From Frankiales bacterium (GTDB lineage Bacteria; Actinomycetota; Actinomycetes; S36-B12; CAIYMF01), in assembly GCA_016125335.1 (NCBI GenBank), contig WGLY01000004.1, forward strand, positions 62,001 to 126,000: a stretch of DNA of 64,000 bases, read 5' to 3'. Every line of letters starts with the position of its first letter. The stretch's first letter is position 1. Below, piece after piece: positions 52,008-56,999 of this stretch. The notes under the pieces were generated by a model. That model saw only the letters and a list, made by a program, of their open reading frames with translations. It did not search any database and was not told the origin of the DNA. A program made the position numbers and the translations under genes.

Positions 52008-55000
52008 TCACCCGACAGGGGCCGGGCACGGGTCGAGGACAGGCCACGCGCCCGCGTAGGCCCGCCATTCCGCAGCCGAGACGCCGCCCGAGATGCGGCA
52101 CGCGGCGTCCCGCCACTGGGCGGGGTCACCGGGCATCGTGAACGTCGTGTCGGCGCCGTGCGAGCGGGCGTCGAGCGGGAGGTACCCGCTGATCAGGTCG
52201 CCGCCCGCGAACCACGCCGCCAGCGGTCCGACGGACCGCAGCCGGACCGGGCTGCCGGCCGCGTCCAGTGCTCCCGCGTCCCAGAGGTGCATGCTCCCGT
52301 CCGAGCCCGTCGTCAGCAGCAGTGCCCCGTCACGGCTGTAGGACAGGGCCGTGACCGCGCCCTCGTGGGCGTTGGGCACCCGTCCGATGCTCGTCAGCGA
52401 CGGCCACGCGTGCTCCGCGACGACGCCGTCGTCCGTGCCGAGCGCGAGCAGCGCCCCGTCCGCGGACAGCGCCCACGTCGTCGGGGTGTCGTCACCGATC
52501 ACCCGGTACGCGGCCACCGCGCCGGTGGACGCGGACACCGCCGCCACGGAGTCGGGGACCGCCGGGCGCACGGTGCCGTCCGGGGTGCTCGGCGCCGGCG
52601 TGACCCCGGCCCCGACCACGACGAGGAGCCCCGTCCCGTCCTCGCCGAGCAGGGAGGGGAAGCCGTACCCGCTGCCGGCCAGGGGGATGCGCACGTCCAG
52701 GACGCCGGCGACCTGGTTCGACGCGAGGTCCACGACGCGCACCGACGTGGCGCCGACGACCTGGTAGAGGGTGCGCCCGTCCGCCGAGAGCACCGCGGTC
52801 AGCGGGCACTCGGGGTAGGCCCACCGCTCGGTCGTGTCCAGCAGGGGCGTGCCCCCGACGCCCCATACGCGGAAGTGCCCGCGGCCTCCCGGCATCTGGG
52901 TGGACAGCGCGCCGCGGCTCCCGTCGGCGGACAGCGACAACCGCACGACGACCTCGTCGGGCTGCATGGGCGCCGCGACGTCGAGCAGCGTGGCGTGCGA
53001 CGCCAGGTCCATCGCGACGACGCGCACGGCGCCCGGCGTGAGCCGCGTGGACCAGGCCACGTCGCCCGCGGCCACGTACCCGTCGGCCGGGATCGGGCCC
53101 ACGCCGAGCTCGAGCCCGGGCGGCAGCTGGTCGAGGTCGCGTCCCACCACCTGTCCCCCGCCGCCGGCGCTGACCACGAGCGGGTCCGCCGCCGTCCCCG
53201 CCCAGACGAGGCCCGTCGTCGCGCCCGGGTCGCCCTGGCCGCTGAGCACCGTCGTCCCGGTCGTGGTCGAGAGCACCAGCAGCGACCCGTCCTTGCCGGC
53301 CGCCGCGAGCATGTCCCCGGCGGGTGAGAACCGGAGCAGGAGCGAGTCGGCGGCCAGCGAGCGGCCGGTCACCTGGATGCCGCGCATGCTGCCGACCGCG
53401 AGGACGCGCGGCAGCAACGGCGAGGACGTCAGCACGACGCCGACGTGCGCGCCGTCGGGCGCCATCGCCAGCGTGCGCACCGGCGACGGCATCCGCACGA
53501 GGTCGACGAGGCGGAGGGTGGGCAGCTGCCGTACGACCACGAGGCCGTCGGCGTAGGCGATCGCGACCCGATCGGCCCCCGTCGCGATCGCGGTGGGCTC
53601 CACCCCGGTGCTCAGGGCTCGCGGCGCGAAGAGACGGTTGCGGTTGTCGTAGACCGTCACCGTGTCGGCACGCATCTGCGCGGGGTCGTACGTCCACACG
53701 TTCTCGGGCCGACGGTGCTCGAGCGCCACGACCCAGCGGTCGCCCTCGGCGAAGGCCGCCGGTGCCGAGCCGGAGGTCGGGACGATCCGGCGCGTGAGCG
53801 ACCAGACGCACGACCCGGACCCCACGTCGACGAGGCAGAGCCGGCTCGAGGACAGGCGTGTCGCTGCGGACGCCGCGAGCACGGTCCGGCCGTCGCGGCT
53901 CAGGTCGGCGACGCCGCCGGACGCCGGTACGGCGACGCTCGAGACCACCGAGCCGGTGGACGCGTCGAGGGTGAGCAGGTTGTCCCTCGAGTCCAGCGCC
54001 AGCAGCGGTGCTCCGGCCGCAGGCACGCCCAGCCACGTGAGCGCGCGATCGGTCGCGATGCGGTAGCGGGTGCCCCGCTCCCGCTGGACCGCGGAGAAGA
54101 GGGCGCCGCGCGTCTGGGGCGAGTCCTGGACCGCCGAGGCCATCAGCGAGAGCTGCAGGGCGGAGCGCGCGTCCGGCGCCGCGTACGACTGCGCGGCGAG
54201 CCGGCCGGCCTCCGCCGTGGTCGCCACCTCGTCGGCCTGCTGCCGCGCGCGCAGGGCCACCCCGCCGACGACGGAGGCCAGCAGGGCGGTGACCGCGAAC
54301 CCCGCGGCGAGCACGGTCATCGTCCGCCGACGACGGCGCTCGGAGTCCATGTCCCGGTGCACGGCTGCCCGGGACGCCTCCAGGTAGGCCCTCTGCCGGC
54401 CGGTCAGGTCGTCGGGATGGCGCTCCTCCCAGGCCAGAGCGGATCCGAGCCGGGGTCCTCGGAGGAGGTCGTCGTCGCTCCAGCCGTCCTGCTCCCACCG
54501 GCGCGCGGCCTCGGCGAGCTGGTCGAGCTGCTCGGCCATGACGGCGCGGTCGCGCAGCCAGGCCGCGAAGCGCGGCCAGCCGTCGAGCAGCGCCTCGTGC
54601 GCGAGCTCCACGGCCACGGGCCCGGCGTCGCCGGGGGCGACGGTGACGAGGCGGGCCCGCGCGAGCGCCGTCAAGGCGCGCACGGACGGCTCGTCGCCCG
54701 GGGGGCAGAGGTCGGCGATCGTCGAGGGACGCCGCACCCACACCCCGCCGCTGTTCGTGGTCAGCGACAGGAGCAGCCGACGCGCCGCCGCACGGGCGGG
54801 CTCGTCCAGCTCGGCGTAGGCGCGCTCGGCCGTCGACTGGAGCGCTCCGCGCACCCCTCCCACGGCCCGGTAGTCCGCCGTCGTCAGGCGCCCGTCGGCG
54901 TGGTGCCCCCAGGCCTGCCGGAGCGACTCCGAGAGCAGCGGAAGGGCGCCCGGCCTGCCCAGCAGCTCCGCGACGATCCGGTCGACGAGCTCGTCGTCGA

Positions 55001-56420
55001 CGGTGACCCCGCGACGCGCGCACGGCTCGACGACGACGCGGCGCAGGTCCGACTCCGACGGGACGCCGACGAGCACCGTCGCGCTCCCGATGCGCCCCGC
55101 GACGAGGTCGAGCTCGAGCAGCCGGTCGTAGAAGTCCGTCCTGACCACCACCACGAGCCGCGTCCCGCGGGAGCGCACCGACGCGAGCCGACGGCCCGGG
55201 GCGCCGCCGCCGCCGGCGAGGGTGAACAGCTCCTCGGCCTGGTCGACGACGAGGAGGTCGAGGTCGCCGGCGAGCGCCTCCTCGAGGGCGTCGTCGAGAC
55301 CTGCCGACGGCGACACGACCCGGATGCGCCAGGCGGCGCTGCCGGGGGCGGCGCCCCGGCGGAGCGCGGGCACCACGCCGGCCCGCACGACCGACGACTT
55401 CCCGACCCCGCTGGCGCCGACCACGACCAGCAGCCGGTCGTCCATGAGCCGCCCGACCAGCTGGGCGACGAGCCGCTCCCGGCCCACGAACACGTCCGCG
55501 TCGGACTCGTCGTAGGCGGCCAGCCCGGGGAAGGGGCACGGCCCGGAGGGGGCCGGCTCGGGGGTGGGCGTGCCGTCGTCGTCCACGCGCTCGTCGACGA
55601 CGGCGCCGGGGACGGGCTCCCGTGCCAGCCGCGGCGGGATCGCCGGCGCGAGGTCGGCGGCCGCCAGCAGCAGCTCCGGGTCGTGGTCGAGGATGCGCGA
55701 CTCCAGCTCGCGCAGCGAGTCGGACGGCTCCACGCCGAGGTCGTCGACGAGGAGGTCGCGGGCGCGCCGGAACGCCGCGAGCGCCTCCGCCTGGCGCCCC
55801 GAGCGGTACAGCGCGAGCATCAGCTGCTCCCACGAGCGCTCCCGGTACGGCTCGCCGGCCACGCGGGTCTCGAGCTCGGGGACGAGGGACGCGCTCTCCC
55901 CCAGGCGCAGCGCTGCCTCCGCGCGCCACTCCCGCGCGAGCGAGCGCAGCTCCGTCAGGCGGGTGCGCTCCATCACGGCGAAGGGCGCGTCGGGGAACTC
56001 GGCGTAGGCCTCTCCGCGCCAGAGCGAGAGCGCACGGTCGAGCTGGTCCAGGGCAGAGGCGGCGTCGCCCTCGCCGAGGGCGTCGCGTGCCTGCTCGAGC
56101 CCGAGCTCGAACCGCACGGAGTCGATGCACCCCGGGTCCACCGCGAGCCGGTACGCCATCGGCTCGGTGAGCACGGGCGAGCCGCCGGTGAGGGCGGTGA
56201 GGTCCGACCGCAGCCGCGCCACGTGGCTGTGCAGCGTGCGCTCGGCGGTGGGTGGCGGCACGTCGGACCAGAGGTCGTCGACGAGGGTGTCAACCCGCAC
56301 GGGCGACGGTGCGCGGGCGACGAGCGCGGCGAGCAGCCGGCGTCTGGCCGGTCCCCCCAGCCGAAGCGCGCGCCCCTCGTCGTCCGACACCGTCAGAGTG
56401 CCGAGCACCCCGAACCGCAC
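52008..56420 (-). CDS. AfsR/SARP-type regulator: winged helix + BTAD + nSTAND NTPase + transmembrane helix + beta-propeller
   Basis: 1470 residues. Residues 1-95 form an OmpR-like DNA-binding winged helix, about 95-245 a BTAD, and 300-600 an nSTAND NTPase with P-loop VVVGASGVGKSS at ~333-344 and DLLVVDQAEELF as Walker B. A single strongly hydrophobic helix (TMTVLAAGFAVTALLASVVGG) follows near residue 700, then a long WD40/quinoprotein-like propeller to the end. The geometry puts the DNA-binding part inside and the propeller outside the membrane. The GTG at 56420 is 6 nt from a TACGCT -10, supporting this start and a leaderless mRNA. It faces a small repeat membrane protein gene. Confidence 0.85.
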   Translation of the reverse strand: MRFGVLGTLTVSDDEGRALRLGGPARRRLLAALVARAPSPVRVDTLVDDLWSDVPPPTAERTLHSHVARLRSDLTALTGGSPVLTEPMAYRLAVDPGCIDSVRFELGLEQARDALGEGDAASALDQLDRALSLWRGEAYAEFPDAPFAVMERTRLTELRSLAREWRAEAALRLGESASLVPELETRVAGEPYRERSWEQLMLALYRSGRQAEALAAFRRARDLLVDDLGVEPSDSLRELESRILDHDPELLLAAADLAPAIPPRLAREPVPGAVVDERVDDDGTPTPEPAPSGPCPFPGLAAYDESDADVFVGRERLVAQLVGRLMDDRLLVVVGASGVGKSSVVRAGVVPALRRGAAPGSAAWRIRVVSPSAGLDDALEEALAGDLDLLVVDQAEELFTLAGGGGAPGRRLASVRSRGTRLVVVVRTDFYDRLLELDLVAGRIGSATVLVGVPSESDLRRVVVEPCARRGVTVDDELVDRIVAELLGRPGALPLLSESLRQAWGHHADGRLTTADYRAVGGVRGALQSTAERAYAELDEPARAAARRLLLSLTTNSGGVWVRRPSTIADLCPPGDEPSVRALTALARARLVTVAPGDAGPVAVELAHEALLDGWPRFAAWLRDRAVMAEQLDQLAEAARRWEQDGWSDDDLLRGPRLGSALAWEERHPDDLTGRQRAYLEASRAAVHRDMDSERRRRRTMTVLAAGFAVTALLASVVGGVALRARQQADEVATTAEAGRLAAQSYAAPDARSALQLSLMASAVQDSPQTRGALFSAVQRERGTRYRIATDRALTWLGVPAAGAPLLALDSRDNLLTLDASTGSVVSSVAVPASGGVADLSRDGRTVLAASAATRLSSSRLCLVDVGSGSCVWSLTRRIVPTSGSAPAAFAEGDRWVVALEHRRPENVWTYDPAQMRADTVTVYDNRNRLFAPRALSTGVEPTAIATGADRVAIAYADGLVVVRQLPTLRLVDLVRMPSPVRTLAMAPDGAHVGVVLTSSPLLPRVLAVGSMRGIQVTGRSLAADSLLLRFSPAGDMLAAAGKDGSLLVLSTTTGTTVLSGQGDPGATTGLVWAGTAADPLVVSAGGGGQVVGRDLDQLPPGLELGVGPIPADGYVAAGDVAWSTRLTPGAVRVVAMDLASHATLLDVAAPMQPDEVVVRLSLSADGSRGALSTQMPGGRGHFRVWGVGGTPLLDTTERWAYPECPLTAVLSADGRTLYQVVGATSVRVVDLASNQVAGVLDVRIPLAGSGYGFPSLLGEDGTGLLVVVGAGVTPAPSTPDGTVRPAVPDSVAAVSASTGAVAAYRVIGDDTPTTWALSADGALLALGTDDGVVAEHAWPSLTSIGRVPNAHEGAVTALSYSRDGALLLTTGSDGSMHLWDAGALDAAGSPVRLRSVGPLAAWFAGGDLISGYLPLDARSHGADTTFTMPGDPAQWRDAACRISGGVSAAEWRAYAGAWPVLDPCPAPVG

Positions 56421-56426
56421 GTCTCG

Positions 56427-56432
56427 AGCGTA
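56427..56432 (-). promoter_or_regulatory. -10 element, leaderless promoter of the SARP-type gene
   Basis: TACGCT on the minus strand ends 6 nt before GTG 56420; no Shine-Dalgarno sequence is present. Confidence 0.5.
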
Positions 56433-56585
56433 GACACGCACCCGCGCGCGAGTCCTGGCGCAGCGACCTGCCTCCGGCGGCGCTTCAGCCGCGCAGCAAC
56501 CGGCGTGCCACCGGGCTGCAACCGCTCCGGGCCACCGTGGAGATGTCACCGGAGGACGGCGACATGGAACGAGGAGGCGGAGACC

Positions 56586-56999
56586 ATGTCCACCACACTG
56601 CACATCCCGTCCGCGCCGAGCACGGGGCCGGTCGAGCACCCGACGACGACGCAGAAGAGGGGTCGGCGCACCGCCTGGATCGTCACGAGCGTCCTCGCCG
56701 TGGCGGTGCTGGTCGCCGGCGTCGTCCTGCTCGTCCTGCAGCCCTGGAGCTCGACGAGCTCCCCCGCCACCACGGCTCCGTCGGTGTCGGCGGTCCAGCT
56801 GTACGGCACGGCCTACGGGCCGGGGTCCCAGACCTACCGCGAGCAGGTGCCCGCGGCGGCGGCCGCCTGGACCGACGCCTACGGCCCCGGGAGCACCACG
56901 TACGCCGAGCAGGTCCCGACGGTCGAGCCCTGGACGGCCGCCTACGGAGAGGGAGGGACCGTGTACGGCGAGCAGGTGCCGAGCCAGGCCACGCCGTGA
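56586..56999 (+). CDS. Membrane-anchored protein with three ~21-residue repeats
   Basis: 137 residues. A ~30-residue cytosolic N-terminus ends in KRGRR, a transmembrane helix spans about 31-51 (WIVTSVLAVAVLVAGVVLLV), and the exported C-terminus carries three imperfect repeats starting at residues 76, 98 and 119 with consensus AYGpGsxTYxEQVPxxxxW. The repeats are rich in Tyr, Gly and Pro. I do not recognise the family. It is divergent from the SARP-propeller gene across 165 bp, so it may be its target or its ligand. Confidence 0.68.
   Translation: MSTTLHIPSAPSTGPVEHPTTTQKRGRRTAWIVTSVLAVAVLVAGVVLLVLQPWSSTSSPATTAPSVSAVQLYGTAYGPGSQTYREQVPAAAAAWTDAYGPGSTTYAEQVPTVEPWTAAYGEGGTVYGEQVPSQATP

Follow-up and report, generated by a model that had tools for sequence, protein, structure and literature searches.

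A SARP-nSTAND1 regulator with a predicted outward-facing propeller and a divergent repeat-tailed small protein in a Frankiales genome

The gene pair and its intergenic region

The window analyzed here is a stretch of 64,000 nucleotides from a Frankiales bacterium (contig WGLY01000004.1). Between positions 52008 and 56999 it carries a large regulator gene and a small gene in divergent orientation, with 165 bp separating the start codons. The original prediction of a SARP with one strong hydrophobic helix, facing a divergent single-pass neighbor with three repeats across 165 bp, was right in its coordinates, and these features were confirmed. Genes flanking the pair were assigned by Pfam to a luciferase-like oxidoreductase, a short-chain dehydrogenase and a GFO/IDH/MocA oxidoreductase. 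Features are listed by window position:

52008..56420, minus strand: SARP-nSTAND1-TM-propeller regulator, 1470 aa, GTG start at 56420, stop at 52008
56193..56351, minus strand: Trans_reg_C (OmpR-type winged helix), regulator residues 24-76, Pfam 2.4e-6
55689..56126, minus strand: BTAD domain, regulator residues 99-244, Pfam 2.1e-43
54477..55535, minus strand: nSTAND1 NTPase, regulator residues 296-648, Pfam 2.2e-89
54258..54314, minus strand: predicted transmembrane helix, regulator residues 703-721, from hydropathy, at the same place in 13/13 relatives
52137..54071, minus strand: beta-propeller region, regulator residues ~784-1428, predicted extracellular, from the strand pattern of a low-confidence model, Pfam WD40 and Foldseek
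52026..52100, minus strand: regulator C-terminal end holding Cys 1441 and Cys 1465, a pair conserved across 11/11 complete relatives
56485, plus strand: weaker fourth heptamer, in the same 11-bp register as the candidate operator
56494..56524, plus strand: candidate SARP-type operator of three heptamers, GCAACCG (56496), GCCACCG (56507) and GCAACCG (56518), 11-bp period
56533..56538, plus strand: CACCGT, -10-like hexamer, 8 bp after the last heptamer, toward the small gene
56572..56577, plus strand: AGGAGG, read from the sequence as the small gene's probable ribosome-binding site
56586..56999, plus strand: small single-pass membrane protein, 137 aa, ATG at 56586, relatives found by profile search
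56679..56735, plus strand: its predicted transmembrane helix, residues 32-50, Kyte-Doolittle 2.99
56811..56852, plus strand: tail repeat 1, residues 76-89, AYGPGSQTYREQVP
56877..56918, plus strand: tail repeat 2, residues 98-111, AYGPGSTTYAEQVP
56940..56981, plus strand: tail repeat 3, residues 119-132, AYGEGGTVYGEQVP

The N-terminal part of the regulator is that of a SARP, Pfam giving BTAD after an OmpR-type winged helix, and it matched the solved structures of AfsR (8hvr, 3.9e-36) and EmbR (2fez, 3.2e-36). The NTPase was assigned to nSTAND1 (PF20703) with 301 bits against a cut-off of 27.1. Against the AfsR equivalog NF053617 of NCBIfam the protein scored 157.3 bits, below the cut-off of 1430. 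A WD40 repeat was located by Pfam at residues 1350-1381 (1.3e-9).

The small protein starts with a basic stretch followed by one strong hydrophobic helix, with 4 K/R in the 15 residues before the helix and 0 in the 15 after. Its tail holds 3 copies of the consensus AYGxGxxxYxEQVP, spaced by 66 and 63 bp in the DNA. The best pair of 14-residue tail stretches had 12 identical positions, and 0/2000 residue shuffles were as good. CwsA and Rv0361 were rejected as identities for this protein, the matches being below cut-offs.

The heptamers of the candidate operator are invariant in 6/7 columns at period 11, a result reached in 0/2000 dinucleotide shuffles and, when any period from 8 to 15 was allowed, in 1/2000. 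An exact match to the triplet exists at a single site of the 3.93-Mb genome. Allowing up to 2 mismatches gave only this intergenic site, with an additional match there one register up, and one further location. Known SARP operators consist of heptamers with 4-bp spacers, an 11-bp period (PMC10936776, PMC10972967, PMC3367932 and PMC5930380). When fitted to the PimR register (CGGCAAG), the units CAGCAAC, GTGCCAC and CTGCAAC agree at 5, 3 and 5 of 7 positions. The original prediction that the regulator may directly control the shared 165-bp region is supported by this triplet.

The xAxxxT form was present at 2/160 hexamer positions of the intergenic plus strand, CACCGT being one; the -10-like hexamer of afsS is CACTGT. 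The distance to CACCGT is 8 or 10 bp, because the heptamer register is ambiguous by 2 bp. Since the hexamer lies just past the last heptamer on the side of the small gene, the regulated direction is likely toward the small gene. A simple-consensus scan of the locus gave no sigma-70-type promoter and no terminator, and Rfam gave no match there. An imperfect inverted repeat, ATGTCACCG / CGGCGACAT, was seen by eye at 56543-56565, upstream of the small-gene ribosome-binding site; a hairpin or a second operator is possible.

Membrane topology and distribution of the regulator build

The best hydrophobic segment of the regulator, residues 703-721, scored 2.18 on the Kyte-Doolittle scale over 19 residues, with a runner-up at 1.39, and 749 residues lie C-terminal of it. 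It was compared across 13 nSTAND1 proteins, namely the window regulator, one from a Propionibacteriales MAG (L027), 3 from genome G015 and 8 from plasmids. The most hydrophobic segment sits just C-terminal of the NTPase in all 13. A C-terminal cysteine pair, 24-25 residues apart, was present in 11/11 proteins with a complete C-terminus. Of these 11, all but the window regulator, which has 5, carry an even number of cysteines after the helix. K/R residues were more frequent in the 25 residues before the helix than in the 25 after in 10 proteins, less frequent in 2 and tied in 1. Cysteines of disulfide-bonded exported domains are paired and even in number, a rule applied to exported actinobacterial proteins. 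An external propeller is thus favored by the propeller cysteine pairs. Membrane insertion with the propeller outside the cell, as first proposed, is well supported by the helix (13/13), the cysteine pair (11/11), the even count (10/11) and the K/R bias (10/13); the case is good, not final.

Regulator residues 655-1470 were modeled with AlphaFold2 from a four-row alignment at low confidence (pLDDT 63.6, pTM 0.44). The model has a single long helix at ~674-747 spanning the hydrophobic segment, followed by 53 strands. Many Foldseek matches to it were two-propeller WD40 proteins, and the top query TM-score among the best 50 matches listed was that of Apaf-1 (3sfz, 0.44). Apaf-1 shares the STAND NTPase and the WD40 propeller sensor, a likeness drawn from the same low-confidence model; it is soluble, assembles the apoptosome and is not known to bind DNA. 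The regulator is predicted to resemble the transmembrane one-component type, sharing with ToxR/ToxS, VtrA/VtrC and CadC a DNA-binding end inside, one helix and a sensor outside. Those regulators are not known to carry an NTPase.

The original view that the build is unusual as such was not supported. In a tblastn search against plasmids the regulator matched 241 records, 207 of them from Streptomyces. Among 30 plasmid matches listed, most span residues ~270-790 (NTPase and helix), and all fall short of 80% query coverage. Pfam placed nSTAND1 and WD40 families on 6 plasmid proteins, with HTH_31 in 2/6 among the rows listed; the 8 plasmid proteins compared are not SARPs by annotation or Pfam. They share with the window regulator the NTPase, the helix directly after it, the propeller and the terminal cysteine pair, but have a short N-terminal end, annotated in several as helix-turn-helix, where the window regulator has a SARP. 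The predicted NTPase-helix-propeller build is common, because nSTAND1-TM-WD40 proteins are frequent on Streptomyces plasmids, and the SARP end is its variant part. One such plasmid gene, annotated helix-turn-helix (NZ_CP108791.1, L117:3181-7300), is divergent from a lasso-peptide precursor gene.

Within the family of the window (17 genomes) nSTAND1 occurred 4 times, each time joined to a SARP, and the small partner gene was missing beside 2 of the 4. A contig scan of genomes with the regulator gave one locus, L027, with 36% identity in the best segment and a different secreted protein as divergent neighbor. Work on SARP proteins has treated them as activators of antibiotic genes that act in the cytoplasm, and to our knowledge few of the signals sensed by large SARPs have been identified. 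No paper on membrane-spanning SARPs was found in the open-licence literature, an absence that is weak evidence.

Repeat-tailed proteins and their neighboring regulators

Profile searches gave three further members of the QVP-repeat type, from 2 genomes of the same family as the source, and all three adjoin a large ATPase or LuxR-type regulator, one of these being a remnant. Failure of the two proteins to occur together elsewhere had been named beforehand as a refuting outcome; the prediction passed this test, the pair being found on contig G015:C149, in another genus of the family. There a two-repeat protein (RPGGSVYDSQVP, QPGGSVYESQVP) is divergent from a SARP-nSTAND1-TM-propeller regulator that extends past the contig end. 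Its 160-bp intergenic region had no 11-bp triplet (best 3/7; 241/400 shuffles as good). By eye, an inverted repeat, AACGGCCC...GGGCCGTT, is seen in this sister region (L033:3283-3442), where the window has its triplet. The genomes compared are partly incomplete, and the SARP-nSTAND1/repeat-protein pairs number 2, too few for coevolution.

At G015:C28 a QVP-repeat protein is divergent from an AAA_16-LuxR regulator; this intergenic region had no 11-bp triplet either (218/400 shuffles as good), and no propeller was detected in the LuxR-type regulators. The third member (G010:C186, L031:4299-4900) lies beside a truncated LuxR gene. This locus looks rearranged, with an inverted or rearranged repeat array, because further repeat copies are found on the opposite strand. 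For alignments A3 and A4 the G010 member was trimmed ahead of its rearranged end; in A4, one row begins 2 residues before its ATG.

A widespread repeat family was rejected by pattern and profile searches at phylum and class level. The DNA pattern YGPG..QVP was found only in the window among 396 phylum genomes; the PGGSVY form would escape it. A profile search of 394 class genomes, with 11 candidates per genome scored, gave 42 matches in 39 genomes. At the 30 of these loci that were checked (L052-L081) the repeat was present in the window only; a single motif match at L076 was unrelated and lay on the opposite strand. The family profile search gave no motif in the rows checked from E 6.8e-4 upward. 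Visual inspection of the weak matches from the order search and the search among relatives placed them outside the family, except for L040 and L041, which gave no readable translation. L073 and L075 encode exported proteins with GPGCxxYxxQVP, close to the window motif, which may be chance; their N-terminus is one that we take to be fasciclin-type.

A second group of small single-pass proteins, with HG repeats, is divergent from SARP-AAA_16-LuxR (SARP-LAL) regulators of ~1130 aa in 4 genomes (L036:5724-10020 on G000:C17, L101, L102 and L103). An HG profile search of 166 order genomes, with 20 candidates per genome scored, returned the same four members and none elsewhere. Segments with a hydropathy of 1.8 or above were absent from 3/4 of the paired SARP-LALs; in the remaining one, L101, a marginal segment of 1.82 falls within the ATPase region. 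All 4 HG intergenic regions share a GGGGAGAARTCCCC palindrome near the regulator start, and in one of them (G000:C17) the heptamer TTGCAGC recurs unchanged after 11 bp. The QVP and HG types were rejected as homologs (hhalign probability 20, with the alignment covering the helix only).

All 8 accepted repeat proteins (4 QVP, 4 HG) adjoin a large ATPase or LuxR-type regulator and 6 of them are divergent from a SARP; the HG share of 4/4 beside SARPs is partly by construction, because that family was noticed beside SARPs. Counted from the regulators, a repeat-tailed divergent neighbor was found at 6/26 BTAD loci of the family (L152, L153 and L154 unscanned; L104 scanned over 723 bp upstream only and 10 others over ~1.2 kb upstream). 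The small proteins accompany large ATPase activators as a class, propeller or not. As judged from these relatives, the pairing of regulator and repeat membrane protein appears to be a recurring local theme, not an accident.

Interpretation of the locus

With a probability of about 0.5, the locus is a regulator-target module, in which a membrane-anchored AfsR/PimR-like SARP activator with an outward sensor controls the divergent small gene as its dedicated output. The domain order, the helix, the repeat copies, the operator geometry and the recurrence of the pair, from which this reading starts, were obtained by computation. The SARP domains and the NTPase would lie inside, the single helix would cross the membrane and the propeller would act outside as the sensor. 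The long helix would relay the perception of a ligand or of an envelope state to the NTPase, which we infer from STAND biology would change its nucleotide state or assemble. The SARP domains would then occupy neighboring heptamers of the 11-bp series and recruit RNA polymerase to the divergent promoter, an activation of the small gene that is moderately supported. The small protein would be made with its repeat tail exposed outside the cell, as the dedicated output of the switch, like afsS for AfsR and pimM for PimR. A role in the envelope or in feedback is probable for it, and for the tail we propose the former.

An activator with its dedicated divergent target is the best-supported reading, and AfsR-AfsS and PimR-PimM are its closest models. 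AfsR-AfsS of Streptomyces coelicolor shares the SARP with a STAND-type NTPase, the 11-bp direct-repeat operator and a small target with three short repeats, but the C-terminus of AfsR is TPR where the window regulator has helix and propeller. AfsS has 63 aa and three short repeats and is described as sigma-like (PMC2267785) rather than as a membrane protein, whereas the window protein is a predicted single-pass one. The window likewise has a small adjacent gene with three repeats, whose status as target would follow from the operator only. The PimR site, three heptamers with 4-bp spacers, is likewise placed between the divergent regulator and target (pimR and pimM; PMC3367932, PMC5930380 and PMC10936776). 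There PimM is a PAS-LuxR regulator and PimR carries a LAL half, where the window regulator has nSTAND1 and propeller. Against the module reading stand the triplet missing in the sister and LuxR pairs, the deviation of the heptamers from PimR, the odd count of 5 cysteines, the K/R bias failing in 3/13 and the partner missing in 2/4. An outward-facing SARP sensor with one clear candidate operator in its genome and one obvious target would be a small system for testing signal, switch and output. New here are the single-site 11-bp heptamer triplet, the second pair in another genus and the repeat proteins beside LuxR-type and SARP-LAL regulators; because repeat-tailed proteins keep turning up beside large ATPase activators, several pairs are available for comparison.

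We consider it unlikely that the pair forms a co-component receptor, in which the outer propeller would contact the repeat tail directly and regulator activity would depend on the complex or on its loss, as for ToxS and ToxR. The predicted topologies put the two outer parts on one side of the membrane, a like pair is present in another genus, and a membrane partner next door is shared with ToxR/ToxS and VtrA/VtrC. Transmembrane DNA-binding regulators with adjacent membrane partners are known, the ToxR/ToxS-type partner lying downstream in the same operon and having a lipocalin-like fold (PMC9214523), whereas the window genes are divergent. QVP proteins also adjoin LuxR-type regulators and HG proteins adjoin helix-free SARP-LALs; therefore the pairing needs no propeller, and tail reading by the propeller is not required as an explanation, though it fits the window and G015:C149. 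These neighbors, and the 2/4 nSTAND1 SARPs that have no partner, told against the original prediction of a propeller that serves to read out the tail; direct contact is possible but unsupported.

More doubtful is a peptide-signal precursor. In this reading the tail would carry a short exported peptide several times over, and the peptide, once released, would be sensed outside by the propeller or, after re-import, by soluble regulators. The outer tails consist largely of one to four short copies, and the repeat type is kept within each family, HG with SARP-LAL and QVP with other regulator types. The tail copies are not identical, however, and the peptide is putative. It is a speculative and rather unlikely extension that the large ATPase activators of the family (SARP-nSTAND1, SARP-LAL and LAL) have dedicated single-pass proteins whose outer repeats are a signal or receptor surface, a Gram-positive co-component or peptide-signalling class. 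If true, its most elaborate form would be an Apaf-1-like sensor turned through the membrane.

A soluble AfsR-like regulator, with the helix outside the membrane and the neighbor merely a regulated gene, is improbable. The moderate hydropathy of 2.18, the odd cysteine number and the pairing with helix-free regulators are consistent with it, but the constant position of the helix, the terminal cysteine pair and the even counts of the relatives argue against it. Chance neighborhood of functionally unrelated genes is very improbable, for although such a neighbor occurs at only 2/4 nSTAND1 SARPs and 6/26 BTAD loci of the family, the repeat proteins (8/8, the HG part partly circular) adjoin large ATPase or LuxR-type regulators, with 6 divergent from a SARP.
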